Shown one piece after another: positions 1,041 through 31,623 of a stretch of DNA of 64,000 nucleotides. Every line of letters starts with the position of its first letter. Within the stretch, counting starts at the first letter, position 1. Location: the NCBI GenBank assembly GCA_903813345.2, contig CAIIXF020000002.1, positions 34,182,109 through 34,246,108 of the forward strand. The letters are read 5' to 3'. The DNA is from Owenia fusiformis. Taxonomy: Eukaryota > Annelida > Polychaeta > Sabellida > Oweniidae. The notes beneath the pieces were generated by a model. It was not told the DNA's origin. It saw only the letters and a program-made list of their open reading frames with translations, and did not search any database. A program made the position numbers and the translations under genes.

Positions 1041-1118
1041 GTTTCCAGGACATCTTCCATTTTACAGGATAAGTGTCTCAAATCGTCAGCCTTTCAACGC
1101 TAATCAATTAATTCAGCT

Positions 1119-6145: not shown

Positions 6146-6290
6146 AGCTATATATACGCATAAACATAAGTTGTGCTTTCACTTATGAGTGACATCTCTC
6201 TATTGAAATGATAGTAAGTATTATAGTTACATTTTTATTTCAGGAAACATACTTATCATCCCAAGTTTCAATTTCCATATTCAATTGCAA

Positions 6291-7363: not shown

Positions 7364-9529
7364 ACAATCATTACTTTATTTCAAGGTTAATCAATCATAT
7401 TGCTGTTTCACCGTAGACACAGCTGTTTATGGTTATATCTGTGTTTATACAATAATAATTGTGAAACTAATAGCATGTATACGTAGGAGGACTCAACTGC
7501 TCAACTCCTACATCCATTAATAAATAAATAAATACTGATTATATGCAAACATATTGAATGAAATTAACTCTTGTGTATGTCTATCTTGGATCTTAGAATA
7601 CAAAGTGGACAGAGGTAACGCGTTTCAGCCAAGGTATAGACACAGAATGGCGGCTTTACGCACGTCTGGAATGGGGAGCTTACTTTTAAGCTACATTCAC
7701 CTGTTTGTGTATGCGACAGTTATCATGGCATATACCATTCGGTCGAGAACTTTGCATTGGATATCTATGTGCAGCTTCTTGAAATTTCGGAAATCTCGGA
7801 AATATATTCTTTGTACACAAAATCAGTCACTTGCTGAAGTTTGACAATCGGGGTATTTTTCAAGCTTCGATTCTCTGTTTTTGACTTTGTCACTGGGCAC
7901 ATGTCTATAAAATCACGTATACAACACGTGAATCTATTTTTCTTCAAAGTGAGCTCGTTGTTTGCCTTCTGTTAACAGATTCTGGGTCGAAAACCAGGCA
8001 TATTTTAGAAACACTGTCCAGACACCGTGGCAACGCGGGTCCAGACACCATACATATTTGACAAAACGTGAAACTAGGTCACAGCAATGAAGCTGATCTT
8101 CCATCTATACACAGTTGCATACATAAAGGGCAAAGGCTATTTTCAGGACAAAAATATCGAAAACGCTCATGATGCAAATGGATTGTTACATCATCAAAGG
8201 CCGGTTTTCATCTAACGACTCGTATCAAGTCCAACTTACCATCAATCAGATCACGGTTATTCGGTTAATCTGCTTCTTAAAATTCGGCTGAAGGAACATT
8301 CTTTAATGACTTTGTGCTTTAGAATACAGAGAAAGTGGATGTCTAGACTTTGTTACCATATAGTTAATGCAGTGATTGCTGAAAATGACTGTGCCTCGTT
8401 TTCGGCTAGTTCAATTCTGTAAGCAGTTTGCAAAAATTTCAATCTAGATTTGTACTGTTCATTTTACATGTGTTAACGTTAAATTTTCTCATAAATTGCG
8501 TAATACCCTAAATAGAAATTAGACGATAGCTCAAGAAAATAGGATCGGGAAATCATAATTTGTGTTGATTATTTCTTAACACTGGTCGATGCCTGATCAG
8601 AAAATATTATCGATTTATATACTTTGAGGGGTTGTTCACCGAATGTGAAGCATGAGTTTTCAAAAACTTACCTATATTTCGATAAAATAGAGGAATCAGT
8701 GGCTCCGATAATCGGAGTTGGCTCCATTTTGGTCTGTAACGCGTTGCAGCCTCGTTTTGAACAGCTACGAGTGGCTGCAGCGCGTTACCTCTGTCCATCT
8801 TGGAATAGGCAAGACTTTTGATAGGGGAGGGTGTGACTTAAAACCAATACCTAATATGATCATTGGACTTCTTTTAACCACTTTCCAAAAACCTGCAATA
8901 ATACTTTTCTGTAAATCTAGAAGACGTAGTTTTCTTGCCTTCATCCTGCCTCACTACACTTCTCCATACTTAAAAATACATAATCAGAAGTGACAAAACT
9001 GCAATTAATGTTATTCTTTATAGCCTCCGATATCTTATCTACCAAGCCATTATGCCTTATCGAATGTAATTATTTAAGATTCAAACTGCAAATATTGCAA
9101 GTCTTATCTAATAAATGGAGAGATGTGTATAAAAGTTCTAGTTTTCCAGGAAAGAAGTATTTAAAATTGAGCCATATTTGTTAAAAGTGCTTATTAAATT
9201 TGAATCTTCGAAAAGAATGGTCTGACTTATTAACCTGGATATTTAACATAAATGCAGAAGCCAACCCGATCTGGATATAATCAATTAAAACTGTGATTCA
9301 GTACACTGTATCCATAAATGATGTTGATGAAGAAATAAATTGCAGTTGTCCTGCTAAAGAAAAAAACATTATATTGCATTCATAAAAACCTCAACTTAAC
9401 ATTTGCGGGAGGAGAACAGCTTTAATTATATGCGCTTTAACAACATACCGGTTGAACACGTGTGCTTAATTCATAATTACCATATTATGGTTACTAGTGG
9501 TTGAATATAATCAACCGGGATAAAGGAAC
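7364..9529. other. intergenic; degenerate repeats only
   Basis: No coding exon seen. A motif like TGGACAGAGGTAACGCGTT occurs at about 7608 and, inverted, at about 8780-8800, each near a 'cagc' cluster; this may be the worn ends of an old element. The last 200 bases should contain the subtilase promoter and 5' untranslated region, but I cannot place a TATA box with confidence. Confidence 0.35.
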
Positions 9530-12500
9530 ATGATGCGGATCATCCGCTGTGATAGAACTCTAGCAGGCATTTTCTATCTCGTTATAGTGTTAGGGTTGAC
9601 AAGTAAGTACCGTATGCGTATTAAAATAATATTAGCCAAGCAGCTACATACTAATATACGACCGTAATTTGAATAAAACATACTTCTTGGTATTCAGCTG
9701 CTCTATATCAATCATATGTAATGATTATATCAGCCATTGCTATGTTTTTTCTTACTATTTACATAATGTAATGGAGGAAACAAAATTCGCACTTTTATCC
9801 GAAGCAGCTTAATTCATATGCCGCATATCATCTTAATGAATCTCGACTAGCTTTTATCATTAAGTTAATTAGTATTTCCGATTGTTATAATGATGGCGTT
9901 AACAGAGTCGGGAGCAAACGTTTTTTTTACTGTTTATTCCAAAGTTGGTATGGTTTTGTTTAATGTTAAAATTTACATTCAATTAAGACTCGAGCGAACT
10001 AGATGAGCAAAAGTTGAGACGCGCCAATCTTAAACGTAACAGGAGAATTCAGGATGAATACATCGTCACACTGTCTCCAGATGCAACCGATGCAGAAGGT
10101 ATTTAATTTAAACAAAACTAATTAACAATAAATATATTAGGTATCAGTTAGTAAATGCTATTAAGATTCTACGAATATTGATCCACCAGAATCTGATTCG
10201 GGAGGAGTTATCCGTAATTCTACTAAGTACAACTACCTGTTGCCGACTTATGAAAAACAACATCAAACATTTTTGCAAGAAATATTGCTAAAGCTATGGA
10301 ATGCATCTAATCAAATTTGATCAAAGTTAGCTTTAACATTTTCTTTAGTGTACATGAATGCAATTATAAAATACCAGGATGTCTAATTGAATTGGTCATA
10401 TATACGGGTTACTATGGTAACTTGACTTTTTGCTAAGCGGGGTATTTTTACATCCCAATACTATTTAAGAAAAACAACAGAATAGTACTAAAAATTACGA
10501 ATGGATCACTTACACCTCTTGTATACATGCTATTACCACATGCATTGTCCCAGGAGATGTTCACTCTCCCTTGTGTCTAATGCACAGTCTGTGTTGTTCA
10601 AATTGATGATACTGTTCTCTGGAGCCTTTAAGGAAACTTGTTCGAATGGCCAACTGGACTTCTGAAAGTTCTTGCATCGTTCCATCCCTCATCCTGTTCA
10701 AAACAACAAAATCAAGGATTGCCTTGTCGTAGAATCTTTACTATCATACACTCTCCAAATCTGATGCATCTTTTTGTTTGGTCTGCCTTCCAAGGACACC
10801 GAACAATCAAATGGCAGATCTAATCTGTGAAAGCTTATCCTCATTTGGAATTTCAGTCATCTTGGAATATTTTAAGTTTGATGATGTCTTGAGCATTCAT
10901 GTGCGATACAAAGTATAGTAGAATCGTGATTGCAATGTCATTTAGCTGTTCTACATTAAGCATTTGTAATTAAACGATAACAAATAAATTGTAAAAGGGA
11001 ACAAGCCTTCATTTGCGGGCATTGATAGGTTTCTGTATTTTGGTAAATTGTGTGACCCGCCTACAAAATAGCCAAGTTACAACATTCGGCGTTTCTGACC
11101 AATCAAAGTGGAGATGCTGATCTTTTACGGATCACTTATCAGTATTTAGATGTCCTGTGAAAATTCATGAAATTATATTAAAAACCTTTGAATTAGAGCA
11201 TTTTCCGCGAACTTATTGAACGACCTGGTATTCGCCAATAGTGTTTAGATACACAGTATATAAATATATCTTATAACGATATATATATATCGTGCATCAA
11301 CTCAATCTGGTGAATCTATTAGATGCACAGATGTTGCAGTCTGCAAAAAATAAATTCATACATTAATTATTTCTTATTTTTCTCTGCATATTGCAGTTTC
11401 TGATCACCTTAATCGAACTAAAGGCAAATTTCAAGATGTTGATGACGTCCATGTAGGAGATAGAAAGAAGAACAATAAATGCGGTGGAAGGAGAAGAGGA
11501 CCCCTTATGTCAGTAGGGACATACAAGGCATACGTCATAACATGTTTTAAAGAAAAGTAAGATTTAAGAAAAATAAAAATGAGGATAGTCAGAGGATGCA
11601 GTTAGTCAAAGTTAAAACTGCTTCAAAATGATCAATGAAAGTGTGAGATGAGTTTTCTGCTTAAATAGTGTCCCTTTTGTCATATGGTAGGGTTTTAAAC
11701 TTGTATCTCTAACTGAAAGCTGTTTAAGATCATCCAATGTGTTTCAACAATTTCCGTGAATCACATTGGTAAACTTGTGCACAATATCTATTTTTCAGGC
11801 ATGTTTGCTAAACTCTTGTAATTTCTTCAAACTTTAAGACTGAGAATAAATTATGGCATCAACCAGACTTTTAGACCATTCTCGACAAAATGTGATAATA
11901 TGAGTCTATTCATGCAAGTATTAAGGAAAATATAGCCTGTTGCAGGGGTTCCTTTTTTGGACCACCCTGTATTGTTAATGTGCTTGTACTAATGTACAGG
12001 ATGGGTCAAAAATGGTACACTCGCATATATTCTCTCCAAACAAAAAATATATATTATAGTATAGCAATCACATATTGTGAAATTTAATATGAGTATGAGT
12101 ATAAGGTTCTAACATGTATGGATGAATGTCAAATTTTTATTTTATAATTCTTTACACGCCACAATACATTTTTATCGTTAACAGCTTAGGCATTCTTCTG
12201 CGCAGTAACAATATCAATAGTGTGATTTTTTTATACAGAAACATTTATCGTAAGAATCTCGGAAAAACTAAACAATCTCAAGAATGTCAGCGAGGGTTTC
12301 AGGATAGCATAAATAATGTAAATTATGGATGTTTTACAATTGAGAGCTATAGCGGCTCATAAAGATAATCGCCTTGAACGCCTTCTTATGTTGATGAACA
12401 AAATCTGATTAGGTAAATTTTGACATCACAATCTTAAACCATGATACATTCTAAAGCATTAATAAACGATGAGGTGGAAAGACCCATTAACCGTCTCATC

Positions 12501-15500
12501 CTTTGGAATGTTATTTAATCTCACCATTTTAAATGATGCAAAAGTGAACCATTTCCATGACCCATCCGGGCCTGTACATGAACTATTTTCTCTAAGCTTT
12601 CACAACTACTGAACTAAAGTTATGTACAACTATATAATAGTGATTGTGAAAGTAACAAATAATTCTTAACTAGATACATTTTAGTAATGACGATTACAGC
12701 TAGTAGGTCTTTAAACAAAACATTGATTAGGTAAAACTTGATTATCGAGGTTGGGTAACTCTTAATATGAGAAACTAATAGGTTTGTTATTTCAGGGACC
12801 TAGAACTCATCATATCTGACAACATTGTGGCAAAAGTTGAGGAGCAACAGATCATTCGAGTAGATAAATCGTGTACTAATGTAGATACACAATCCAGAGG
12901 TCTCTGGGTAGGTCCCCTTATTATAAACGGAACTTGTACCAGAGTAGGTCAGTCGTGTGCTAATGTAGATACACAATCCAGAGGTCTCTGGGTAGGTCCC
13001 CTTATTATATACGGCACTTGTACCAGAGTAGGTCAGTCGTGCGCTAATGTAGATACACAATCCAGAGGTCTCTGGGTAGGTCCCCTTATTATATACGGCA
13101 CTTGTACCAGAGTAGGTCAGTCGTGTGCTAATGTAGATACACAATCCAGAGGTCTCTAGGTAGGTCCCCTTATTATATACGGCACTTGTACCAGAGTAGG
13201 TCAGTCGTGTGCTAATGTAGATACACAATCCAGAGGTCTCTGGGTAGGTCCCCTTATTATATACGGCACTTGTACCAGGGTAGATCAGTCGTGTGCTAAT
13301 GTACATACACAATCCAGAGGTCTCTGGGTAGGTCCCCTTATTATATACGGCACTTGTACCAGAGTAGGCCAGTCGTGCGCTAATGTAGATACACAATCCA
13401 GAGGTCTCTGGGTAGGTCCCCTTATTATATACGGAACTTGTACCAGAGTAGGTCAGTCGTGTGCTAATGTACATACACAATCCATAGGTCTCTAGGTAGG
13501 TGCCCTTATTATATACGGCACTTGTACCAGAGTAGGTCAGCCGTGTGCTAATGTAGATACACAATCCATAGGTCTCTAGGTAGGTGCCCTTATTATAAAC
13601 GGAACTTGTACCAGAGTAGACAGTCGTGTGCTAATGTAGATACACAATCCAGAGGTCTCTAGGTAGGTCCCCTTATTATATACGGCACTTGTACCAGAGT
13701 AGGTCAGTCGTGCGCTAATGTAGATACACAATCCAGAGGTCTCTGGGTAGGTCCCCTTATTATATACGGCACTTGTACCAGAGTAGGCCAGTCGTGCGCT
13801 AATGTAGATACACAATCCAGAGGTCTCTGGGTAGGTCCCCTTATTATATACGGCACTTGTTCAAGAGTAGGTCAGTCGTGCGCTAATGTAGATACACAAT
13901 CCAGAGGTCTCTGCGTAAGTCCCCTTATTATATACGGCACGTGTACCAGAGTAGGTCAGTCGTGCGCTAATGTAGATACACAATCCAGAGGTCTCTGGGT
14001 AGGTCCCCTTATTATATACGGCACTTGTACCAGAGTAGGTCAGTCGTGTGCTAATGTAGATACACAATCCAAAGGTCTCTGCGTAAGTCCCCTTATTATA
14101 TACGGCACTTGTACCAGAGTAGGTCAGTCGTGCGCTAATGTAGATACACAATCCAGAGGTCTCTGGGTAGGTCCCCTTATTATATACGGCACTTGTACCA
14201 GAGTAGGTCAGTCGTGCGCTAATATAGACACACAATCCTAAGGTTTCTGGGTAGGTCCCTTATTATATACGGCACTTGTACCAGAGTAGGTCAGTCGTGT
14301 ACTCATGTAGATACGCAATCCAAAGGTCTCTGGGTAGGTCCCCTTATTATATACGGCACTTGTGCCAAAGTAGTTCAATCGTGCACTCATATAGCTACGC
14401 AATCCAAAGGTCTCTGGGTAGGTCTCCTGCTTATATACGGCACTTGTACAAGAATATATAAATCGTTTATTTATGTAGATACACAATCCTTTGACGGCGA
14501 TTATCCCACAAATCTTTACCCCTAAATACTTTTAGACTTTTAGACTGGATTTTGTCTGCCCTATATCATTTAAGGGTTATTGTTCCATAATGCATCTTAC
14601 CACGAACTATTCATATTGTAGTAAATATCTTTTCATTCTATTATTTGACGCTCATATTATATTGTTACCACTTTAGTTTAATGACAGGTGAGGGTGTCAA
14701 ATATTGTATCTTTGTGTGTTAGTTCATACTTCGAGATTTAAAATGTTCCTATTGTTCCCGCTATAATTTGTAAATCTCTTTAGTATTTTACATTTGGCCT
14801 GTGTGCTTACAAAATAAAGAAAAATACTTTCCCAATATAAGAAAAATGTGTTTCGAAGATAATGAGAACATAGAATCATTATATAGTACGTATGTAAGAC
14901 AGGGTTAAGCAGCTTAAGGACAGTTGAGCTACGTATGTGTGTGTGGGAATACATAAGCACAAATGCCAAAGGGGAAAGAAAGGGTAGGGTGCTTCCTCTG
15001 GTGTGTCTGAGCGTTAATATCAGCTGCCTCTAGTCAGATCGACTAACAAAACAACTTTTTTTTGGGGTTGTCGAGTTGGCCGAGAGGGCTTGAGTGCTAG
15101 CACGTTGTTTAGGCTATGCGATTGGGGCCGTAACCACGAGGTTGCGAGTTCGAGACGCGTGTGCTCCTTGCGTTTATTCATTGATGCATCATGATTGAAA
15201 ATTTATTAAACACATCTTGATTTATTAAAATGAAATTCCAAATCTGTTCAAACACAATAAGAAAAGTCCAACGACTCAATATTGGTAGTGTTCTTAGCGA
15301 TCGTGCAAACATTAAAACGAATAAAAAACGAATGCTGTCATGCTTGATTGAATTTTCCGACGTACGCGCATACCACTAAGAAATGAAAACTTATCTGCAC
15401 ATTGACTTTTCTTGTATACAGGTAATTTACAGTTAATACAAGAGTTCGATATGAGAAATAAATCCATTAACCGGTTAACAAAAATACGCTAACGAAAATT

Positions 15501-18500
15501 TATTAGATTTCAACACAAATAACAGAACTGAAATGATGGGTTAAATACATTTTATAGCATTTATTTTATATCATAGCTATTGCTCCGTATATGTTTGAAA
15601 TATGTATTAGTCACTATCATACCTATATGTTCTTTTGCCTTTGCAGAACCTGGACCGCATAAACCAGAAGTCATCAGTCTTGGATAATATCTATAACTCA
15701 TCCCAAGGTTCGTTAAAAACCTGTAAGTGCAATACTGTGCAATATCCTAATTTTAAAGTTATGGTAGTCAGGAAAAGCTGAAAATTAGTTGGTAGCAAAA
15801 CCATAATAAAATGAGAATGTAAAAACTTCAACCACGCTTGGGTATATCATAATAAAATGATTAGTAAGGCGATGTATACTTTTATGAACAAAGGCCAATA
15901 AAGGCAATTACAGATTGATAATTCCATATAAGTAGTGAGTAAAATTGATTTCTTTAAAAAAAATCTTCTTTTGGTAAAAAGGAGTCACATTAAGAATGAG
16001 TTTTAGTACACAATTTTTCATTAGTGAACTATGAGAAACTTTCCTTTAGATTGCTTGGGATATAACTTGTAAAAGATGCAAAGATATTTACCCCAATAGA
16101 ATGACATATTTGTATAATACTAGTATCGCATCCACATTGATGAAGTTTTGAGATTTCGACATTTTAAGAATGAATATGATTTTATCGAAGAATGGTTTTG
16201 TTTGAAATGTGTTTATATCATTTCTGTTATTTTAGGAGTCGGTGTGAATGTTAATATATATATCGTTGACAGGTAACTGTGTACTTTTCTAATATTGCTA
16301 ATTTTATCGTCTTCCTAACTTTATTTATCACTTTGGTACAATGAGAAACACACGATTCAATGAAGTGACCATTGAAAATACTTTAATGTAATATATGGAG
16401 ATAAAGAATATATTAAACATGCTTAGAACACTGAAAAAACATTAAACTTTGTTGCTTGAATTGGACGTAAATGTCAAACAATAAAATAACATCGTTAAAC
16501 GCCCCATACTTGTGAAAGCACAGAAGATGTAGTTTAATAGAAACATTAACTCAATATCTGTAGATCCATTAATGCTTAAATGTGGATCGAAATGATTGCA
16601 AGAAACCTCTTAATACGATTTCATATTGCAATATATCCTAGATGTATAAGGTCATAAAACAGTCATAACATGGAAGTAAAAAATTATACTCTCACATAAT
16701 AAAATCTTCTTCCATTATACTAAGTTCTAACATTAAATTCATATTTACATCTACAAACACAGCCCTTTAGAGACACAAATGTTCTCCCGAATGAGGATTT
16801 GTATATATACAATCGGTCATGTGAGCTGTAATACGTTTTGCTTTGAATTTACATATACTTTCTGCTGCCATTTTGTCCCACGATCTAAGTGTGATATGGG
16901 TGCCATATTTTAAGCAATGCCAACGTGTCCTTGAATTCTTTCTAAAAAGAGATATGAAATTGGTGTGGAAACACACCTCTAAAGGTTTGCAATATTTAGC
17001 ATTTTTAAGTGATTTTTCCATTGGCAATATGCTTTGACGGCATTTCAAAAACAATCCCAATATTTAAGTGACGTGAGCTCCCCTAGCTCCCCGATATTCT
17101 TTGTATCCAGGTATTTTTGTTTTTAGTGGAATACAAAAAGGACACCCAGAGTTCGGTGGGAGAGCAGAATTTGTAAGTTCAATTTGAGCTTTCCCAACCA
17201 TTATAAGTTGAAACCTTTGTTTTTCTATCTAACTTCGCTTACTCGTATAAGCGCGTGCCTTTGCTTTCTTTTTATGTGAAGAAGTTCATCTCCTTGCTTA
17301 TACTTGTTTTTAGGGTGTGAATTGTCTGAACAGTTACGACACTCCTACGGATAAAGATGGCCATGGTACACACGTAGCAGGTTAGCGAAATTTTAAAATA
17401 TATAAATGTTGTTCGAAGGCCTACTTATTTTAAATCTATGTTGATGTTCATACTGCTGACGTTAACAGAACTTCATTTAATATTTAGGCATTGCAGCTGG
17501 ACTTACTGTTGGCGTAGCACGAGGTGCCACTTTGATTGCTGTAAAGGTTTCAGAGAACAGCGAAGCAACAACATCGTAAGACAATTGCAACCTATTGTAT
17601 CCTAACTATTGCATATTATGCTCCGCACAGATGTAATGCGCATGCGCTTTAAGCATGATTTAGAATTCTCCAGAGATGTTTAGATGTGGATTGTGATATT
17701 AAAAATGGTGGATGAATTGGAGTCATTTTTGCACATTTTTGTACAGATCTGTGACTGCTGGTATAACATGGGCAGCTAACGATGCAGCAGAACGGAATAA
17801 GCCGGCAATACTTAAGTGAGTCCTGGTTTTACAGCATTAAAAATTATACATTCACGACGGTTATTCGATGGCTCGTATTAATACTATCGTGATAACATAC
17901 TGATCATATATAAATGCTTATTCTGCTGACCAAGATTTACGAATGTATAATAGTTCGTAAATAACCGAAGCATGTGATGCCTGATTAATTCACATTATGA
18001 CTTCGAATTGTTCATATTTCGTTGCCTTCTGGCAGTTTATCTATAGGGTGGCCTAAAGAAGACCACGATCTTAACCAGTTAATAGCCCAAGTGGTGAAAA
18101 AGGGGTTAATTGTCGTAGTTGCTGCCGGAAACGAAGCCAGTGATGCATGTGATTACACGCCGGCTAATGTACCAGACGCGTAAGTCTCAGTCTCGCACAA
18201 ACGAGATTTAGAATTGATTTTAAAATCCCGAATTCCAACAGCTTTTGTTTATAGAAGACATTTAAGGTGTTAAGCCCTAGACTAATTAGTGCATTGTTTG
18301 CTGAATCATACCATGAAGGTCTTGTTCAAATCTTTGCATGGCCGCACAGCGGGAATGCAATGTTTAGGAAACAACGCCTGAGTGGAATGAAGCAGCTACA
18401 ATGCATATTTGGCTTAAATTATTTTCACACATTGCAAAATATTTTCCATAAAATCATCTAAAGGAACAAAATCACGAAAAGAAGACATTTTCAATGAGAT

Positions 18501-21500
18501 TTTTTGCAAGAGTCAAGTTGGCAAGTTATCAGATCCAATGTGAAAAGTCCATTCATAACCATGACAAATGTTTAACTAGTGGCCTTGAGTGCGATTATTT
18601 CATGCACGGCTGTCATGTGAAATATTGATTGGCTGGAATCAAACACACCTTTCCTAGCTATGAGTGAATAGACAATTATGGTCGATATGTCTTAAACAAA
18701 ACATTTCTTCAAACGGAATTATTTATCAAACTGAAATAAATGTTTTGGCTCATATTTATATGGCCATATACTAGTATATTTCAAATAGGTTACGTTGTAT
18801 GTTTAACTTAGGATAACTGTAGCATCGAGTACGAAATATGATGAGTTAGCAGCATCTTCAAATACGGGCATGTGTGTCGATATTATTGCCCCGGTAAGTA
18901 TTATAGTTTAGTACCTTGTCCTGAGACAATACCACTAATAATTTTGAAAAATGCGTTCTCCATCCATTGACCACGAATTACACACAAAAGATGTCGTTGA
19001 AGAAAAGTCAAGGATTGTATAATTAACCATATGTCTTTGATTGAGAATACCAAATATTTGTCCAAAGTGTATTGTTCAATTGTTTTTCTCCTATTTTAGG
19101 GTGAAAAGGTTCTTTGCCCAGATCTACATGGGTACACCATTCATTCAGGTAAAATTTCATAAATGAAAGGTCAATTGCCATATTCTGATTCTGGATGTGG
19201 GATACTCAATTATCATCTAACTAGTAACACCTGTCTAAACGGTGCTCGAAGCGAGACTGACATTCCTTTCACCCGGATAGTATAATGTCGATTATTCCTC
19301 ATTGTGGCTGATTAGAGGTACGGAGCATGATAAGCACTCTTTTGTTATGGAATAAAACAATCTAGATGTACATCGCTTGTATTACAGACAAACACAGCAA
19401 AAAATGTGTACGAATACAACGAATCCTGACGTCAGGATACATACAGGATATGCACCCAGTGTGCCAAACCTGTATGAATCCTGATGCCTGGATACATACA
19501 GGATTGGCACCGAATGTACATATCCTGTACATATCCTGTGTCAGGATTTATACAGGATTGGCGCGTGTAGGAATCCAGTATGAATCCTACATCTGGATTC
19601 ATACAGGATACGTTCGCAGTGTGCCAATCCTGTATGAATCCTGATGCCTGGATACATACAGGATTGGCACAAAATGTACATATCCTGTACATATCCCGTG
19701 TCAGGATTTATACAGGATTTGCGAATGTAGGAATCCAGTATAAATCCTGCCCCTGGATTCGAACAGGATACGCTCGCAGTGTGCCAATCCTGTATGAATC
19801 CTGACGCCTGGATACATACAGGATTGGCACACAATGTACATATCCTGTACGTATCCAGGAGTCAGGATTTATACAGGATTGGAGCATAGAAATCCAGTAT
19901 GAATCCTGCCTCCTGGATTCATACAGGATACGCTCGCAGTGTGCCAATCCTGTATGAATCCTGACGCCTGGATACATACAGGATTGGCACACTGTGTGCA
20001 TATCCCGGATTACATATCCTGCACATAATTTACAAATTATTGATTGCTATTGTTACTAAAATTTATTACAAAATCCATGTTAATTTGATAAAAAAACAAT
20101 ATTTCAATTTTTTCAATCAAACAAATAATCTACTTTCAAAAGTACCTGTATTAGTATCCAAAAGTGAATTTCATTAAGATTAGAATGAACATTTTGCCAT
20201 TATTCACAATTATTTTTTCCCTGGACTATTGTGATTTGATATTTGATGCTTAAGAAGCTATAGAAGACAAATGGTATATATAAATAGCAATATGACATAC
20301 TTTTAAAGAGCCTAATGTCTGCAACCTTTTTATAACAGACTTTCAATTAAAGATAACACATAGTCGCAATGGTGGAGGGATTTGGATATTTGGAATTCCC
20401 TCGGCGATTTATCATTACTTATCTGTTTTTCAATATTGTTGGTGTTTTGCAACCCTTTAATATTCAATTAGCGCTTCAAAAAAGTATTGTTTTTCAAAAG
20501 GTAGGTCAAAAGGGTCAAATCGAGGTCAACATGACATTTTGTGATAAATTGTTAATGTGCGAAAGTACGAAATACGTAGTACTGGTATGTTCCAGGCGTG
20601 ACGAGGCTGTTTTATTAATGTTCTACGAATCTAGATTTTATATCACTTGAAACAATGCATAGCCCTTGGTGAGAGGGGGGGGGGATTACAGACATCTAAC
20701 ATAGCGTTTTAGTTATGTATAATCATTAATCAAAACAAATGAAATAATACCAATTAGTCCACCTTTCTGATTACATTTTGTCCATGTATTTCTGGACTTA
20801 TTTACTTATGATTTAGCCAATATGATACAACAACAAATTAACTTCACTTGCGTCAGCCCTTCATCTCCATGCAAATATAATTGTATTCATGTTCGACGGG
20901 GAATAAGAATTTGTTTACCCGGTGTAAAAGAAATTATGGTCCCATGGGGATTATGGTCCCCTTTCCTTACGGCTCTTACTGGCCCTGGCTGTGTATAAAT
21001 AATAAGGAAAATAATTGTAATTAGGGCACCATATAAATCAATAGAGAGTAGGACCAAACTTTGATAGGACCACCTACCCTTTTACACCGGCACCCCTGAT
21101 CATTATCAAGCCCCCTCTAGATATCAGGTCCGTCACAGGCACGTAACCAGGGGGGTTCGAGGGGTTCGATTTACCCCCCCCCCCCCCCGGCAAATAAAAT
21201 CTTTCAAAATCATGCGGTTTTTCACCATTCTGAACACTTTTTAAGTGATTTCGGCCATTTTTGGACCAACATTGGCACAAGTAACCCCCCCCCCCCCCCT
21301 TGGAATTTTTCAAGAAGTGAACCTCCCATGGCAAATCCTGGCTACTGGCCTGCGTCATACTGTATGGCTAAAACTCCGGGCTTTCGCTAGAGAGGCGTGC
21401 CTCAGAATACCCATGACCCGGAGGTTAACTTAAAAGTAACGCAAGGTAGATAAAACTGTATTTAAGGGAAAAGAACTACTGTACAGTGGGCCCTGGCTTA

Positions 21501-24500
21501 GTCAAAATAATGTACATTTATCGTTTACTCTGGAGTTCAGATGGTAAAAGAAGCAACAGATGAACTCTCTTCTTTTGATAAGCTAAAACTATTGAAAGGA
21601 TAATTGCTATTGTTATCCCAACGAACGAAGTTCGGTAGGGATATAGTGAAGCCCTCCGTCCGTCCGTCCGTCAGTCCGTCAGTCCGTCAGTCTGTCAGTC
21701 AGTCCGTCCGTCCGTCCGTCCGGAAGATAACTCAAATACTAGTGGACGGATTTTCTTTATATTTAGTGGAAAGATGTATATTGATGGCCGCCGCTTTAAA
21801 AATGACGGGACTTTTTCGCAAAAATCATAAATTTTTCATTCTAAACCAAAGTAATTAATATTATTGTTTGAAATTCTGGTAGTATATTCGCAACATCTAT
21901 CTATTTCACATATATTCCGTGTTTTTCATCCTGACCCCCAGGGGCCATGTATGGGGGTCAGGAAAACAGAAATTTTCGCTAATTTTTAGATCTTTCTGAA
22001 GTATAGCTTTATTATACTCAAATGAAAGGCAATTAAGAGTAGATTGCAAATATTGTATCTTTTTTCTGATTCGAGCCTCGTAAAATTGAAAATGGCCGTC
22101 TAATGTAGCCTTACGATTTCGCAATAATTTTTCGATCCCTTCAAAGTATGGCTATATTATACTCAAATTGAAGGAATTTTGGAGTAGATCACAATTATGG
22201 TATTATTTTTCAGATTTGTACCTCAGAAAATTCAAAATGGCTGCTTTGCAGGAATTCGCAATTCTAAAATCTAAATTTTTCAATTTTAACCAAAGTAATG
22301 AGTATAATTGATTGGAATTCGGTAATTGATATTTTGTTCGTTGGGATTTGCTACTCCGCGGAGTTGCCATTATCTAGTTATAATCGCTATTACCAGTGAA
22401 AATTCAAATTCACTAATGATGATTGATAATTTAGCTACAAGCCCCGCCATGAGTGTGTGAATTTTGGCTGAAATAGAGGGGGGGGGGTAGTCTGGAGGCA
22501 AGATTTTTTGATTGCATATACCGTACTTGTTTTCAGGCATCATACTATTTCCATGAGTGAGTGTCAAATTTTAAGACTCATTTTCCTTCTTTTCCTTCCC
22601 ATGCGAATTTCAAATACAATTTGCAAATGCATCCTAAAATCTGATTTCCCCTCCTCCAATGTGTTGCCTGTCTACTATTATTACAAATGCGCAAGGGAAA
22701 CAGTTTAAATGGAATGAAATGTATCTCAAATCAGTCTCAAATGCTATGGCCGATAGTCTCAAATGCTATGGCCGATATAATTATTTGGGTGACTCTGACC
22801 TAGACCGTGCTTTTGTGTATCAGTTGGAAGACTTTGGTTTGTCTCGTTTTCGTCGACTGGTGCCTAAATGCATTTGTAGACGCAACGCACATTCCAGGGC
22901 GCACATTTCAGTAATATGTCATTTATGAAAAAATTGAATTGAAAGGCATCACATGGAGTGGAGGGGGGGGAGTTATCATGATCAGAGTTGTGGCTAATAC
23001 TTATTGTTAAGAATAAGATATGTCTGAAAACAAATATAATATATATTGTTCCTGAATATGCTATACCTGTAATATCAAAGTAAATTGGATTATTTATATA
23101 CATGTCGTCTAGTTCGGATGTTATTTTAACAAATACAGCAATCAGACGGCGTATTCGCAATGTAACTTATGATATCAGTTCTCACATTTTTAAAGCCATG
23201 GGAAAATGAAATCTGAAATAAAAATGCTTTTTCTAGCATCTTGACTCAGAGTAAATTATATTTTGAAAATGGTTTTGACTCATAATCTTTAAGTGTACAT
23301 ACTTAATGGCGACAATGACATACATGTACATATGCATCACGCGAGGATGGATGATGAACATGTACTTTACATCTGCACGTTGTCAATATCTATATCGGCG
23401 GTTGATGTCTCATGTTCCCAAAATAATTATAGTGATAATGTTCAAAAACAGAATATGATGTGTATTGTTGTCTTGCATCACTATAGGAGTAATAATTTGA
23501 TTAGAAACCTGGAATTAGAATAACTCTCCGAATTTGAATCATATATTTGAAATCGAAGAATACAATGCCTCGGGTACAATGCCCCGTGTATTCTCAATCC
23601 TGATTATCTATCAATGTCTCCAGTGAGTTTGCTTCTGTGTGCCTCTCCAAGTAACAAATCTATCACATTACACATACCAATGTGGGCCCGGGACTTGAAA
23701 AACAGACGTAGACTTCGACAGTGCAAGGGGGAGGGGGACTATAATGTAGTAACTTTTGGTTTTGTCAAATAGCTGAAATAGTTTGTCACAAATTAGAGGC
23801 AGGTTTAAGAAATGAGACTAGAGGCAAAGAATAATTATATTCATAAAATCTAAAGTAATTCCTCGATGATCTCTTCAGTAATCAAGGTGGTACACTTCCG
23901 CAGTTATAAAAACAAAGACATAGACTAAGTACCAGGTCGTTCAATAAGTTCTCATAATTTTGCTCTCATTTTAAGAGTTTTTTATATTTTTCCATGAAAA
24001 TTTCACAGACGATGCAGAATGTATCTGTGTAACAACTCTGCAAAGATTATGTATTAATTCTAATGGTTGTGGAAATGGCGGTTGCTATAGTAACGTCAAA
24101 AATCGGTAGGCGGGGCAACTTTATTTGATCGTAAAATCCATGGATGTAGTTAGATTTCATCTTGAAATGTCATATGTTTTATCTGAAAGATTTGCAACCA
24201 TAGAAACAGGTTTTGACATCAGTGTGAAAGATGCAACTTTTCTGAGTATAGTTATTACTGTGACATCACATAAAAAGGTATGACATCACAGAAAAGGTTT
24301 CAATAGAGAGACCCAAGATGGCAGCTGACTGTGGTCTTGTGAAAAGTCAAGATGAAATTCAAATTCAAATCCGTAGTGTGATAAGATTTTGTGTGTTATC
24401 CAAGAAATCAAGAGGAGAAACAATAAAAGCAGTTCAAGATATTTATGGAAAGGAGTTAATGAGCAAACCTACCATATACCAATGGTATCAAAGGTTTGGT

Positions 24501-27500
24501 TCAGAGGGAAGAAAATCTGTGATGGATGAAAAACGGACTGGCAGACCGGTAAAAGTCACCAACCCAAAGGCTGTTGAAAGAGTTAAGACAGTTCTAGATG
24601 ATGATCGCCGCATCTCTGTACGGGAACTTAGTGAGAATGTGAACATTAGTATAGGTAGAACACACTTCATTCTGAAAGAGAAGCTTAAAATGAACCTCAT
24701 GTGTGCTAAATGGGTGCCAAAGGAGTTAACTAGTGACCAGAGAGCCCGCAGAGTTGAGGTTTCCCAAGAATTTCTAAGACGATACCAAGATGAAGGGGAT
24801 AGTTTTCTTCAACGAATTATCACATGCGACGAGGTGTACGTCAGCTATTATGAGCCCCTTGGGAAGAGAGCATCAAGTGGTTGGAGAACTAAGAACTCAC
24901 CTACTCCCATTTCAACCCTGGCAAAACTGACCAAAAATGACGGCAAGGTGATGTTCATTGTGTTTTTGGATAGCTCTGGGGTGCTGCTTACGCATGAAAT
25001 TCCTGATGGTCAGAGAATAAACAAGGACTATTATGCAATGGTAAGCTTATTCATTATTAATAAATTAATCAATATAAGAGTAAAAACATTAAATCAAATC
25101 AAATTTAAAATCAGATTTGAACTATAAAAATGGTTAAGTACAAATGTTAAAGGCATTAGTATCCTATCCTACTGACTATTTCAGGTTCTCAAGAGGCATC
25201 TCAAACGGGCCTTCTCAAAGAAACGCCCCCTCCTAGAGTTGGCGACAAGAATATTTCATCAGGATAATGCCCCGTGTCACCGGGCAGAACTTGTACTGAA
25301 CACCATAGGAGAACTCGGAATGGAAGTTCTCCCACAGGCACCATATTCACCTGATGAAGCCCCATGCGACTTTGGCGTGTTTGGCCGAATGAAAGATGAG
25401 CTGAGAGGTTTTCGATTTGCATCGACAGAAGATTTGCAGAATGCAGTCCAAAATGCTCTCAGAGCTAGATTTCCTGATGGATTCCATAAAATCTTCCAGG
25501 ATTGGGTAGAACGTCATCGAAAGTGTGTCGCATCCAATGGACATTATTTTGAGCATTTAAAGTAGGAATAGAAACATTTACCCCATACTATTTCATGGGA
25601 TAAATGGGACTACATGACATTAAAACACTTGTTACTCTCCACAATGTTGAACTGAATTATATGCCACTATGACGTCAAATAATCTGCCCCGCCTACCCAT
25701 TTTTCATGTTACTATAACAACCGCCATTTTCACGACCATTAGAATTAAAACTTAATTTTTGCGGGGTTGTTACACAGATACATTCTGCATCGTCTGTGAA
25801 ATTTTCATGGAAAAATATAAAAAACTCTTAAAATGAGAGCAAAATTATGAGAACTTATTGAACGACCTGGTAATTAATCTTTTGTTATCATTTAATATTA
25901 GTTACTTACAGCATTAATTTGTCTTGGATTTCCAAGGTATAATGTTTTGATTGAAAATCAAACTGGGAAACGAGTATGCTCCTTACAGATGTGTATATCA
26001 AATCCTGTGAAGAGAATCAATTCAAACTCACCACCCCCCCCCCCCCATCTAGTGTCTCTTAATTACAATTATTTCGCAAATGAAACAACCCAAAAATGTT
26101 GATATGTCAACATAATTTTGCAGAACTGAGCGAAACGAAAGGTGGAACAAATCAGATTAAATATTCTATTCTGGATAGCACAAAAGGCAACAGTTGAAAC
26201 AAAACTATTCACGATCCTACAACAGATAGCCGTTTGCGAATTCTGCTTTATGGTCCGCTTCTATTGTGCCCCCATTGTCCCTGTTTGAGATACATGCTAC
26301 AAGGAAAGGAGACGCTACAGTAGAAGAATAGTAAATCCAAAATTGAGATCATATTTCATAGTCTTAACATTTAATACTTTCAAATATGTCAAATATTTAA
26401 ACCCTGGGCATTTTAACATTTTGCATATTCGTCATCAAATCTGATCATATACGTACCCCCCCCCCCCCCATCTGCAATCATGATAGAAATCTGACTTCCG
26501 GTCTCAAAACTGAAAAATAAAATTATCGATACCCTAACCAATTGACCAACCGACTGAACCACCCCCGGGGAACCACCTACCCATCGATCGACTAATCAAG
26601 CAAACTACAAAACATCCAAGCAACCAACTTTCAAAGGAAGCGACCAACTTTGCAATCACCAGTCAACAGAAGGCAAGAAACTGACCAAGCAAAAACAAAG
26701 CAAGCAACCAAGCAAGTGTGCAACCATATAAGCAACAAACAAAGCGAGGAACCAAGCAAGCAGCTAATTAAGTAAATATACATGGAAATACACGTAAGAA
26801 AGCATATGAACAACAAAAAAATCCAAGTTGAGGCTGATATGGACATCAACTGCACACATTTGATTAATTTAATGCAACTTCCAAGTTCAAAATGAAGCAC
26901 AAAGGTTGACATTTGAGAACATAACTGATACCAAAAGGACGCGTGAAGACAAAGCTACATTTTCTAATTCTAGATGCTCTTACTGGGTAATACTTTTCAG
27001 GGTTACTTAAAGAGAGAATCAGATCTACCGAGCAAGCCAAAACGTTTCAATATGTCTGGCTTATATCACTCATTGCCATGTCTAAAAATCTCCAAAGTAT
27101 CTTTATATGCAATACATAATATCCCCTACAACCAAGCTCCGCATTCTAGCACTCGGATACTTGGTTGATTGACAATATTGACTTACACGATATGTACATA
27201 TATGTAATGGCTAAACTGAAGTGACGATCAACTCCCTATCCCCGGGGCCCCTATCCCAGGTGCCCCAAATGTACTAGATCCATGGGCATTCGATAGATAT
27301 TATTGAAAGTCCATGCTAGATCTTAAATACACATTTTTTGGTAAATTAGATCCACTTGCTTCCCACATCAGATTTCTATTAATCACTCATTTCTTGAAAC
27401 GGTCCTATTTCAATTCTTTCCGGCCTAGGGAAAACCTTTTAAGACGAATATATGTAACTGTTGATATTTTGCTCTTACACATATCAATTTTAAATTCAAG

Positions 27501-30500
27501 GTACAGAAAAACCAGTCGACGTTTTTTCGAAAAGGTAGAACTGTATATTACACGTCGCACGAAACTGGGGACAATTAGCGTAACATTATGGCGTCAAAAA
27601 ACCAAAACAAAACAATGAGCAGTATAGGGCGCAAACATCCTTACAACGTCAAAAACGACAAGCGTCACATTTTTTCAAGTTTACTCAACCTAAGAATAAA
27701 ATACTTTATCCTTATCTGATCATTACAAAATTCACAAGATAGCAAGATCTCGAGGACAATATTTTTAAAATGTTTTTGAATTTTGAAAAACGGTCAAGAA
27801 TCCAAAACCCGGATCTAAAACAATATCTTATTGTCATTAATTTATTGTCCAGTTCTACCTTTGATATTAATGCCAAATTCTGTTGTTTGTTAGCAACATG
27901 ATGAGGATTGATTTCTATATGGCAGGTTACTTTGATTTTAAAGGCCTATGGTAATATTTTTACATCAAATTTTAGTTGTTTATCTGTGATATCTAAAATG
28001 AAGAATTAAAAATAGTACTTCATAAAACCTAATGCATAGACTGCAATCAAGGCCCGGAATCGAGGTCCCTTGAATATCATACCCGTGAAAAACCAAAAAT
28101 GCAATCAAACAAGTATATACTAGTATTGTGTGGTTAAGATCAATGATCAAGGAAACCCATTCGTGGGATTCATACTTATTGTTGATTTTTTTGTTTACAA
28201 GAAAAGGTTTCGTACGAGTTTTGATATTGTCCTTCGTAATAAAACCCATATTGAGTCCCTACCAGTAAATAACCACTATACTGTACGTACATTTGCAACA
28301 TATGGCCGCCATAGAATATTTGGGAGTCTAGGCAAGATACATGTACCAATTGTCCCATCCTTTCATCATCAATCCCTTGATCGATTTATAATAGTGAGCT
28401 TAAACCGGATTAAACCATCTCCCTCAAACTTATACAAATCCTGACTTAGAGTACGTAAAGGATTGGTACACTGTGTGCATATATTTGTATCCTGGCGTCA
28501 GGATGCATACATGACTCGCGCACAGCGAGCCTATCCTGTGTGAATCTTGACTCAGGATACGTACAGGATTAGCACACTGTGCATATCCTGTATGAATCTA
28601 GGCATCAGGATTCATACAGGATTGGCACACTGCAAGCGTATCCTGTATGAATCCAGGAGGCAGGATTCATACTGGATTCCTACACGCGCCAATCCTGTAT
28701 AAATCCTGATACAGGATATGTTCAGGATATGCACACAGTGTACCAATCCTGTATGTATCCAGGTGTCAGGATTCATACAGGATTCGCTCACAGCGAGCAT
28801 ATCCTGTATGAATCTTGACTCAGGATACGTACAGGATTGCCACACCGTGTGCATATCTTGTATGAATCCAGGCGTCAGGATTTATACCGGTTTGGCACAC
28901 TGCGTGCATATCCTGTATGAATCCTGATGTCAGGATTCATTGTATTCATACGCATTTTTTGCTGTGAAATGAAATTGCATAGGCTACTAATGATAGAAAT
29001 AATATACATCAAAAGATGACACTGTAAATGAGGTGCGAGTTGCTTTATTACCGCCATCTTTTCTATTATTGATAGTATATCTTAATTTCGTTCCGTCCAT
29101 CTCTTTCAGGTACATCGTTTGCAACACCTCTTGTGGTAGGTACAGGTTTTTGATAATATCAGCTTTCGTTTGATATCGAGGACTCTTGCATTTATAAAGT
29201 TTGGTCGTGCGTCTGAATGTAATACATTTTCGGAATTACTCTGAATATATTAATGTTGTTACATATTATATTTTACATATTGTACTTACAGAGTGGAGTT
29301 ATCGCGGCAAACCTAAATGGTTCACATAACTTAGGTAACCCATCACCATATGTTGTGGCTAACTGGCTCGAGGAAGGAATGCTGTAAGTTAATATATCAA
29401 AAGAAAAATTGAGAAAGCTCAGAAATGGGTCATTTCTGGTTAAAAACCGTTCCACATTTCCTCACATTCAGAAACATGCAAAATAGTCAATTTGCGGTAC
29501 CGACTACGTAATACCTTTAGGTCTCCGTGGCTGAGTATTAAGACTATTTAACATAGAGACCCAATAAGATTGAAATACTAAGATAACAACAACGTCAAGG
29601 CTTAGCAAATCCCACCAAACAGACAAGGTTGCCATTTTTACAAATCTCTCATCTACTTTTTCAGTTATAGTAAAAAATCTTTGAATAACACGCATAAATA
29701 TGACGGTCATATTTCAAAATAGCCGCCTACTAGGCAAGGTATCATAAGACAGTGTCACATGCTTTTGAATATCCGTATATCAAATAACATCAGCAAAATT
29801 TCGTTCATAGCTTGTATCGGCTGTCATTTTTCAAGATGACCATGTTTTTTAGATATATAGATTTTCAACTTAATCATTATCTTATACAATATTTTGCATA
29901 AAACAAATTGATATTACAGTTTTATATGTTGTAACTAAAAACTGTAAAATTCTCACTAAAATGGCGGCCATTTTGAAACCAACGAAAATTTTGAAAAGCT
30001 AAAATCGATCAGAACTTGTACTCCCATGGGATCATACGAGTGGTGATCAATAAGTAATGGACGCTTTTCTACACAGATACTTTTTATAGACCAATCCCTT
30101 TGATTTTCCTACCAGTGATATATCATTCAATTATCTATCAATTCAGAAGATTTGAAGACAAAATATATAATACATGTTGATCTATCCTTATTTCCGTGAA
30201 GGAGGTACAGGTACCCCGGGACCGACATTTACGTCACATATTCAGTTTTTAGCCAGTTTGGCAAATTTCAGTTACATTTAAACTTTTTTATATGCAACAA
30301 GTGTTGTGTTTGAAATATTTTGCTGACTGGTTACACGTGAACAGTAAGTGATGTGATGTCAGAGTGTTGTATGGTCGGGGTTTGCAGGTCAATTTGAGGA
30401 AGCATTGTGGAAGAAGGGGTCGGTGAGAGAAGGAAACACCCCACTCCATATGGACAATGCACCTGCCCACATATCTCAAAATGTTCAGAAAACAATATCC

Positions 30501-31623
30501 CTGGACCTCAAAATTGAGCCCTTGGCCAATGCACCATATTATCCAGGTGACTTATTTTTTCCTATACTGCTTATTTCTATAGAGAAGGGGCGCAGGTTTA
30601 TTGACATTGATGGAATAAAACAACCCGTGCAACTGCATCTTGCTACCATGTCAGAGAATGGATTCAGCCTTGTCTCACAATCTTGAATTAAGAGGATGAG
30701 GAATTGTGTACATGTAGCACTTGATGGAACCTAGAGGGCCCTGTAGAATAAATGTGGCATTAACACCACATAGTGATGATAAAATATGCAAAATCAACTA
30801 TGGCATAACAGAATGGGGTAATTCATGACCATAATGGTTTGTTTTGTTCAGCCTGCATTCAACTGCATTGCATGTTAAACAAGCTAATTTAATAACTTCA
30901 GAATGTTTGACGTAAATGTCGGTCCCGGGGTACCTATACCTCCTTCACGGAAATAAAGATATATCACAATATATAACATGTTTTGTTTTCAAATCTTCAG
31001 AGTTGATAGATAATTGAATGATGTATCACTGGTAAGAAGGTATCGGTCTATAAAAAGCATCCGTGTAAAAAAGCGTCCATTTTTTATTGATCATTCCTCG
31101 TATTAGGGTGTTTTTCAAGAGTGTTCTCAAACCACAACGGCCCTTTGACACGGGGTTACAAATTGTGCTGGTAGTTCACTGATTTTTTTCGTTCGATGGG
31201 ATAGGATATAACCCAACAGTCATCAGATAAACATAAACTTTGGTGGACCATTTGAAAATATTATTTTGGTCGGCTTCCCAATACTGCAAAAGTATGCAGT
31301 ATGTAATTAACAATGTGCTTTACACGGAAACAAAACTGATACAACCTTTATTCCATACTTTGATGTATTCAGTCTGATAATTTTCTAATTTTGTATACTG
31401 AACAAATTAATTATTTTAAATTCGCTCCAGTGTGTTAACTACTCGGCCAATATAACATTTCTTTCCTTCATACCTCAGGCTTAGCTAATCCTAATATCTT
31501 GCAACTTACTATTACTCGGTCCTGTAATTTTTACAATATAATACTTTCAGTGATGGCGTTGTTGATGTCAAGGCCACGGGTACTGCAAATATACTTCTCT
31601 TTGGAGAACCATGTTATGACTGA
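9530..31623 (+). CDS. secreted subtilisin-like serine protease (S8, proteinase K type), 16 coding exons
   Basis: Coding exons, all joining in frame: 9530-9602, 9988-10098, 11397-11556, 12796-12907, 15647-15707 (or to 15722), 16236-16272 (or from 16239), 17127-17172, 17314-17380, 17488-17575, 17747-17815, 18036-18179, 18812-18893, 19100-19148, 29110-29135, 29292-29383, 31551-31623 (TGA). All introns are GT-AG. The product is 429 or 433 residues. Exon 1 encodes a signal peptide (AGIFYLVIVLGL). Exons 2-4 encode an I9-type propeptide (DEYIVTLSPDATDAEV; TYKAYVITC). The mature domain begins near LWNLDRINQKSS. Catalytic residues by the shorter numbering: Asp184 (NIYIVDSG), His217 (DGHGTHVAG), oxyanion Asn307 (VVVAAGNEA), Ser369 (GTSFATP). 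Spacing matches proteinase K, and cysteines in ACDYTP, GMCVDI and EPCYD fit disulfide positions of that group. Probably an extracellular or lysosomal endopeptidase; substrate unknown. Exon 4 ends inside an 84-bp minisatellite, and intron 13 (about 10 kb) carries nested transposons. The exon 5/6 junction has two frame-preserving choices. Confidence 0.9.
10560..10850. other. intron 2 segment, weak transposon-like sequence
   Basis: Intronic. The minus strand has scattered coding-looking stretches in different frames, which might be a very decayed transposon fragment. I could not identify a family and treat this as unresolved. Confidence 0.15.
11040..11231. mobile_element. decayed solo mariner end related to the 23.9-kb mariner
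   Basis: The end GAACTTATTGAACGACCTGG followed by TA is identical to the right terminus of the mariner at 23932-25870. Upstream, 'GTGAAAATTCATGAAATTAT' and 'GACCCGCCTAC' correspond, with many changes, to the same element's right inverted repeat (GTGAAATTTTCATGGAAAAA and GCCCCGCCTAC). I found no matching left end nearby. It sits in intron 2 of the subtilase gene, about 165 bases before exon 3. Confidence 0.6.
12869..14491. repeat. 84-bp minisatellite, about 19 copies, containing exon end and splice donor
   Basis: The period is 84 bp (unit core GTGCTAATGTAGATACACAA, then TCCAGAGGTCTCTGGGTAGG). The first unit overlaps the last 39 bases of subtilase exon 4 and its donor (TGG|GTAGGT at 12908); later units repeat both. 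Because 84 is a multiple of three, long open frames appear on both strands; these are artefacts of the repeat, not genes. Units 13 and 15 carry GTAAGT in place of GTAGGT. The last two or three units are more diverged, as expected at an array edge. Confidence 0.95.
15067..15167 (+). repeat. tRNA-like sequence, probable SINE head or tRNA pseudogene
   Basis: It contains an A-box-like TTGGCCGAGAGGG at about 15076 and a B-box-like GAGTTCGAGAC at about 15147, spaced about 60 bases apart as in tRNAs with a long variable arm (Ser/Leu type). The ends do not form a convincing acceptor stem, so a working tRNA is unlikely. It lies in intron 4 of the subtilase gene. Confidence 0.45.
19436..20010. repeat. 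palindromic subterminal repeat array, left
   Basis: The period is about 160 bp: GTGCCAATCCTGTATGAATC recurs at about 19621, 19781 and 19941. Within each period the 'CAGGAT' and 'ATCCTG' motifs alternate in opposite orientation, so nearly every part can pair with its neighbour. The right end of the element (28440-28930) has the same motifs in inverted arrangement. Confidence 0.85.
20011..21612. other. element interior, no credible gene
   Basis: AT-rich with poly-C/poly-G runs near 20677, 21174 and 21285. Around 21125-21345 the sequence folds roughly on itself (a 'cccccc' run, 'aagtgatttcggccattttt', then a second 'cccccc' run), which may be a small worn MITE. Confidence 0.3.
21613..22370. mobile_element. 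repeat family A, diverged copy 2 (inverted)
   Basis: Begins TTATCCCAACGAACGAAGTT followed by a (CCGT)n tract and ends GTTCGTTGGGATTTGCTACT with GGAGTTGCCAT, i.e. the same two ends as copy 1 in reverse orientation with A for T in the ATCCCATCG motif. The interior has GGCCGCC/AAAATGGC motifs but no coding region. It is nested in the 9.57-kb element. Confidence 0.65.
22660..22928 (+). other. open frame with a 24-base tandem duplication, function unknown
   Basis: A short open frame inside the 9.57-kb element. It includes a direct duplication of about 24 bases (TCTCAAATGCTATGGCCGAT, twice in tandem at about 22734-22778). The protein has no motif I recognise. It could be a fragment of the element's lost coding region or chance; I favour neither. 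Confidence 0.15.
23932..25870 (+). mobile_element. mariner element with long terminal inverted repeats, apparently intact
   Basis: Flanked by TA on both sides (23930-23931 and 25871-25872). Left end CCAGGTCGTTCAATAAGTTC; right end is the reverse complement. The inverted repeats run about 190 bp each (left to about 24121, right from about 25677), including TTCCATGAAAATTTCACAGA and the 'GGTAGGCGGGGC' block. Most mariners have inverted repeats near 30 bp, so this length is unusual. It encodes one transposase. It lies inside the 9.57-kb element in intron 13 of the subtilase gene. Confidence 0.93.
24318..25565 (+). CDS. mariner transposase with one intron
   Basis: Exon 1 24318-25040 and exon 2 25185-25565 join in phase 0 (ATG|GTAAGC ... 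tatttcag|GTTCTC), giving 367 residues. The N-terminal part is the paired-type helix-turn-helix region (KPTIYQWYQRFGSEGRKSV; DDRRISVRELSENVNIS). WVPKELT is the mariner WVPHEL motif. Catalytic acidic residues: ITCDEVYVSYYEP, then HQDNAPCHRA, then YSPDEAPCDFGVF; the last two aspartates are 34 residues apart, the mariner D34D pattern. Without splicing the frame ends at 25127 before the second and third aspartates, so splicing is needed for an active enzyme. No frameshift or stop interrupts the spliced frame. It catalyses cut-and-paste transposition at TA sites. Slightly longer than the usual ~345-residue family size. Confidence 0.9.
25873..28439. other. element interior, low-complexity and non-coding
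   Basis: Poly-C runs occur near 26033 and 26455. A degenerate (CAAGCAAC)n tract occupies about 26590-26790. The open frames present have no recognisable motif or conservation-like composition, so I annotate no gene. Confidence 0.35.
28440..28966. repeat. palindromic subterminal repeat array, right
   Basis: Inverted counterpart of the array at 19436-20010, with the same alternating CAGGAT/ATCCTG motifs and ending CATTTTTTGCTGTG. It is shorter and somewhat more diverged than the left array. Confidence 0.85.
30037..31100. mobile_element. internally deleted mariner-like element with ~195-bp inverted repeats
   Basis: Flanked by TA (30035-30036 and 31101-31102). The ends are CGAGTGGTGATCAATAAGTA and the reverse complement of CGAGGAATGATCAATAAAAA; pairing continues through TTTACGTCAAAC/GACGTAAATGTCGGTCCC. 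Only a transposase remnant survives between them. Confidence 0.85.
30405..30570 (+). pseudogene. mariner-like transposase fragment
   Basis: A short stretch reads HMDNAPAHISQNVQ followed by KIEPLANAPYYPG, matching the second catalytic aspartate block and the YSPDLAP motif of mariner/Tc1 transposases. After PYYPG the sequence leaves the family (the third aspartate is missing), and the whole N-terminal half is absent. Upstream 'SVREGNTPLHMDN' may mark the deletion joint. It cannot be active. The HxDNAxxH form differs from the HQDNAPCH of the 24-kb mariner, so it belongs to a different mariner lineage. Confidence 0.7.

Follow-up and report, generated by a model that had tools for sequence, protein, structure and literature searches.

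In the annelid Owenia fusiformis, the boundary between exon 4 and intron 4 of an intact proteinase K-like subtilase gene is covered by an 84-bp minisatellite, which repeats the end of the exon together with its splice donor 19 times. The neighbouring paralog has the same junction once. The first three donors leave the reading frame open, and the fourth copy brings in a stop codon. We consider it most probable (about 0.6) that the array is a young, mostly unselected expansion behind which transcripts would be spliced mainly from donor 1, with some from later donors, and which the gene would tolerate without having been selected to keep it. The window, that is, the whole stretch of DNA analysed, spans 64,000 nucleotides; positions refer to it, and the main features are collected in Table 1.

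Results

An exon boundary repeated in an intact protease gene

The host gene was rebuilt with GT and AG at the ends of all 15 introns and with no internal stop in its frame. Its first 13 exons match the S8 family (PF00082) at 7.6e-30, and, once its signal region is removed, the product matches the proteinase K-like enzymes 2b6n (1.2e-46) and aqualysin-1 (1.9e-46). VDSG, GHGTHVAG, AAGNE and GTSFATP are all present in the protein model, and the last of these, the serine motif, was located at 29106-29150 by tblastn with a paralog exon. A dead host gene appears unlikely given the GTSFATP exon and the closed 16-exon frame. In neither paralog did the I9 propeptide profile match with Pfam at E values up to 10, in a search whose HMMER filters drop most weak matches; 'propeptide' is thus a positional assignment only.

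Three other features of the locus were recorded. The 10-kb intron 13 contains two further tandem arrays with similar 55-bp units (ATCC...TGTATGAATCC; 19421-20005 and 28489-28940) as well as a Mos1/mariner-like transposase open frame (24264-25127; HTH_48, 9.3e-9; Transposase_1, 1.7e-5). The minus strand between the head-to-head protease genes carries a 764-residue open frame (1307-3601) to which no Pfam profile matched at 0.001.

Table 1. Features of the host gene and its donor array (window positions).
Feature	Position	Strand	Remarks
Host gene, proteinase K-like S8 subtilase	9530..31623	+	16 exons, 1290-nt frame; Asp, His, Asn and Ser motifs
Exon 4	12796..12907	+	112 nt, acceptor at 12795; its final 50 nt supply unit 1 with its exonic part; gene model, borders and length equal in the paralog
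Predicted hairpin AUCCAGA-GGUC-UCUGGGU over exon end and GT	12892..12909	+	folding -8.2 kcal/mol in 36 nt; paralog -1.6
Native donor TGG/GTAGGT (unit 1)	12908..12913	+	hexamer and position equal in the array-free paralog
Donors 2 (12992) and 3 (13076)	12992..13081	+	in frame by translation
TAG in place of the Trp codon, immediately 5' of donor 4	13157..13159	+	in frame with exon 4
Donors 4-19	13160..14423	+	unit-4 stop upstream of each; donors 10-19 additionally out of frame
Exon 5, acceptor facing the array donors	15647..15707	+	gene model; top-scoring acceptor of intron 4

A minisatellite of about 19 copies had been described at 12869-14491, and Tandem Repeats Finder confirmed it on the plus strand with borders at 12858-14489 (84-bp unit, 19.5 copies, 93% matches, score 2732), the copy number being that of one assembly. 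All 19 units carry the end of exon 4 and its donor, as the preliminary description had it, and the native junction is backed by the paralog. The donor copies start at 12908, 12992, 13076, 13160, 13244, 13328, 13412, 13496, 13580, 13663, 13747, 13831, 13915, 13999, 14083, 14167, 14251, 14334 and 14418, at a spacing of 84 bp in 16 of the 18 intervals and 83 bp in two. A GTA[AG]GT motif follows the exon end in 19/19 units, and the donors fall into three types: TGG/GTAGGT (13 units), TAG/GTAGGT (units 4, 8, 9 and 10) and TGC/GTAAGT (units 13 and 15). Mean identity is 92.9% over all 19 units and 95.4% over units 2-16. With exon 4 ending at 12907 and exon 5 starting at 15647, the acceptor at 15647 does face the roughly 19 donor candidates that had been proposed, and 19 were counted. 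Candidate acceptors inside the array, which might make cassette exons, score at best 7.06, against 11.67 for exon 5, which is itself among the 30 sites used to build the acceptor matrix; the 30 real acceptors span -2.8 to 13.5 in leave-one-out scoring, a range that includes 7.06.

A search of the genome with the unit consensus, in which very common words and some stretches were left out, gave a single first-pass candidate and 19 matches at E ≤ 0.01, every one within the array. Another such array elsewhere in the genome is likely absent, which a search of this kind does not prove. With one genomic place found, a dispersed satellite or a transposon-borne repeat is not supported. An array read as one long coding-repeat exon was also rejected, as the frame ends at the TAG of unit 4.

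The junction is single-copy in the paralog

The paralog, found by protein search, lies a short way beyond the window, on the other strand (34170064-34181677 of the contig), head-to-head with the host gene and with its start about 10 kb from the host start. Rebuilt, it has 16 exons, and its intron phases equal those of the host at 15/15 introns. The two proteins are identical at 280 of 425 aligned residues, with dN at 0.246 and dS at 1.059; this dS is near saturation, and dN/dS reflects everything since the duplication rather than just the period in which the array has existed.

Exon 4 of the paralog, with host-like borders and length, ends in a single copy of GGTCTCTGG/GTAGGT (TGG/GTAGGT), and there is no array. 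Unit 1 is the nearest of the 19 units to this exon (38/50 bases, compared with 32-36 for the others), the GTAGGT....TTATT of the paralog intron is preserved in the intronic part of the unit, and similarity between the two introns picks up again at 14539-14573, about 50 bp beyond the array. As the paralog has the junction once and without the array, donor 1 represents the ancestral state and the array a derived one. The comparison thus indicates that the array arose later than the gene duplication and grew across the native boundary of exon 4 and intron 4. It is also much younger than that duplication, since units 2-16 are 95.4% identical and their divergence is far below that of the paralogs.

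Reading frame and sequence variation of the units

The unit of 84 bp is 28 codons, and donors 1, 2 and 3 had been proposed to add 0, 28 and 56 residues in frame, the next donor following a TAG. Translations bear out both statements: the first three products are in frame and free of stops, with +0, +28 and +56 residues, and the exonic part of unit 4 ends in TAG, which all of donors 4-19 include, giving a premature stop.

For the comparison of units, gaps were counted as variation and the last of 85 alignment columns, a one-base overhang of one unit, was dropped. Donor columns show no extra conservation (3/9 vary, compared with 30/84 overall; P = 0.59), and there is no difference between exonic and intronic columns (20/50 versus 10/34 variable; P = 0.36). 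The intronic stretch remains open in 52% of shuffles; combined with the one-in-three chance that a unit length is divisible by three, an in-frame open unit would arise by chance about one time in six. No feature of the array requires selection to explain it. The idea of a 'natural device' for length-variable linkers, raised in the preliminary description, therefore finds no support in these three tests.

Donor strength does not single out donor 1

Donors were scored with a matrix trained on the 28 other donors of the host gene and the paralog, which together have 30. The unit donors score 5.82 (TGG), 7.92 (TAG) and 7.55 (GTAAGT), within the range of real donors of the two genes (3.54-13.21), and for pairing with U1 the energies come to -9.7, -9.9 and -5.4 kcal/mol, respectively. 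Units 13 and 15 had been singled out as a better consensus than the original. This holds for the intron side, where GTAAGT raises the matrix score to 7.55 from 5.82; however, both units have lost the G at -1 and carry C there, and because their U1 pairing is weaker despite the higher matrix score, they are not clearly better donors. Two single sites of intron 4 beyond the array outscore every unit donor, at 15422 (10.68) and 14688 (8.68).

Both of these are AG/GT sites of the recursive-splicing type (window 15402-15427 and 14688), and they rank first and fifth, respectively, among the 416 AGGT sites that the window holds on its two strands. The best site of this type in the paralog intron scores 7.50, compared with 16.01 here. 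A separate observation concerns the donor of exon 5, which is weak (AAG/GTTCGT, 15708) and has a GTAAGT 15 nt downstream at 15723 (window 15691-15740). Both donors are kept in the paralog, 14 nt apart. Use of the downstream one, read by eye, leads to a TGA in the host gene and a frameshift in the paralog, and it may be a conserved unproductive donor.

Next in probability to a tolerated array with some use of later donors, although itself unlikely, is that exon definition from the acceptor at 12795 picks donor 1 only, which would make the array an ordinary intronic minisatellite in effect. Such a choice agrees with exon size, as exon 4 has 112 nt with donor 1 and later donors need exons of 196 to 1622 nt, and with donor columns that lack conservation. 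Yet the later donors are equal or better in sequence, and printed precedents have several used donors, to go by the title of Turri 1995.

A predicted hairpin over the exon end

The end of exon 4 and the GT of its donor are predicted to pair in a hairpin (Table 1). Its 7-bp stem occurs in 10/19 units (1, 2, 3, 5, 6, 7, 11, 12, 14 and 16), the native donor included; the paralog donor does not form it, and in units 4, 8, 9 and 10 one G-to-A change both abolishes the stem and creates the stop. When all 30 donors of the host gene and its paralog are ranked, the native one comes last in accessibility (2.3e-6, the next being 6.3e-4) and second in local folding, after the exon 8 donor. Two units folded together reach -52.2, more stable than 100 shuffles (-43.0, s.d. 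4.1). Among 3,000 random GT sites, 167 fold equally strongly and 95 have stems of at least 7 bp. As roughly 3-6% of random GT sites match it, the hairpin was dropped as a clear adaptation.

These predictions could be taken to mean that the hairpin-free units (4, 8, 9, 10, 13 and 15) beat the masked early donors, so that most transcripts would bear a stop and output would be lowered. U1 energy naively corrected for local folding points this way: units 1-3 have -1.5, compared with -7.2 in units 4 and 10, -4.2 in units 8 and 9, and -2.4 and -2.8 in units 13 and 15. The TAG units are also the top unit donors by matrix. We nevertheless regard such damage, or a brake on the gene, as improbable: comparable hairpins and stems occur at the random GT sites counted above, the real donor of exon 8 folds still more strongly (-8.8), and the host frame is intact.

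Extra residues would fall inside the mature N-terminus

The additional residues had been placed between the propeptide and the protease domain. Homology does not bear this out and puts the insert after mature residue 8. The junction W152/N153 aligns with residues 8/9 of mature proteinase K (query 147 is residue 3 of 1ic6), as it does in the alignment to aqualysin-1 (query 146 is residue 2); residue 145, eight residues before the junction, aligns with residue 1 of both mature enzymes. If maturation uses the first site, the extra residues would lie inside the mature N-terminus. SCxNVDTQSRGLW recurs in each unit, and an ordinary N-terminus would therefore be regained if maturation took place in the last copy.

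One could accordingly imagine a selected source of N-terminal length variants, with donors 1-3 in use and each unit a copy of the maturation region. The 28-codon unit that is open in frame, the lack of stops up to donor 3, and the place of mature residue 1 so close before the junction, with the motif in each unit, are what such a device would need. It is nonetheless highly improbable, given that the frame stays open in about half of the shuffles and an in-frame open unit is expected about one time in six, that the paralog does without the array, and that a conservation signal is absent. Least credible of all, by a small step, is that protease output is governed by the composition of the array, masked donors 1-3 yielding active enzyme and hairpin-free units dead messages, with one G-to-A change in the latter both bettering the donor and turning its last codon into a stop. 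If true, how many units of each type the array holds, and in what order, would work as a heritable and fast-changing dial on one gene of the pair.

Discussion

The reading that we prefer, a young and tolerated expansion, would begin with repeated tandem duplication of an 84-bp segment spanning the native exon 4/intron 4 boundary, producing a young local minisatellite. Through this expansion, the boundary of an intact protease gene would have gained 18 additional copies of its native donor. Splicing probably runs mostly from donor 1 to 15647, and later copies probably see minor use: in-frame forms with 28 or 56 additional residues would come from donors 2 and 3, and premature-stop forms, probably degraded, from donors 4-19. 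The gene thus seems to tolerate the array, which would not be under selection. In its favour count the single junction of the paralog, the one genomic place found, the stop-free host frame with dN well below dS, the high identity of the units, unit donors that score in the range of real ones, donor columns free of extra conservation, and the precedents in print. Against it, the predicted hairpin would mask the native donor just as it masks its copies, which offers no ground for donor 1 to prevail; the sites at 15422 and 14688 outscore all unit donors; and dN/dS also covers time before the array.

Arrays of this kind have human counterparts. One of them, an interferon-induced gene, is reportedly 6-16, with a short repeat unit. 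By its title, the report on this transcript describes a minisatellite providing multiple splice donor sites (Turri, Cuin and Porter 1995, NAR 23:1854), and the likeness is that minisatellite copies serve as candidate alternative splice donors in a gene. The title speaks of several donors in a transcript, whereas the Owenia array has an 84-bp unit, donors known from DNA and an in-frame stop from unit 4. The human CBS 31-bp VNTR, named c.1444_1467+7(16_21) (PMC2630376), consists by that name of the last 24 coding bases and 7 intron bases in 16-21 copies, such that the donor is multiplied to a number close to the 19 found here. In contrast to the 84-bp unit, which keeps the frame and is seen in one assembly, 31 bp shift the frame with each donor, and the VNTR is described as polymorphic in people.

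In human genes that lie within segmental duplications, internal tandem repeats located at exon-intron boundaries are reported to change splicing in some cases (PMC2812944). As in Owenia, expansion in one of several paralogs alters exon-intron structure; the human repeats, as summarized in that report, have mean units of 30 bp in four copies and RNA support, whereas the 84-bp array is known from its DNA sequence. Intron gain by tandem duplication (PMC4974935) is similar in that a duplication spanning a boundary multiplies splice signals. That account describes a new intron with its own acceptor, whereas here the donor end is repeated and candidate acceptors in the array score below that of exon 5. 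The MIR137HG VNTR was not used as a precedent: the passages on it give two new donors in the VNTR exon and do not say that the repeat carries a donor. Because splice-donor minisatellites have been in print since 1995, as the title of Turri 1995 attests, the surprise is limited; by these comparisons, the array appears to join that known class, with a large in-frame unit and an array-free paralog.

With 19 near-identical candidate donors competing behind one exon, the locus offers a natural series, for which the array-free paralog next door is the control. Knowing which donors this gene uses would reveal how the choice among near-equal sites depends on position, hairpin masking and U1 pairing, and how a gene survives the growth of a minisatellite across its splice site.
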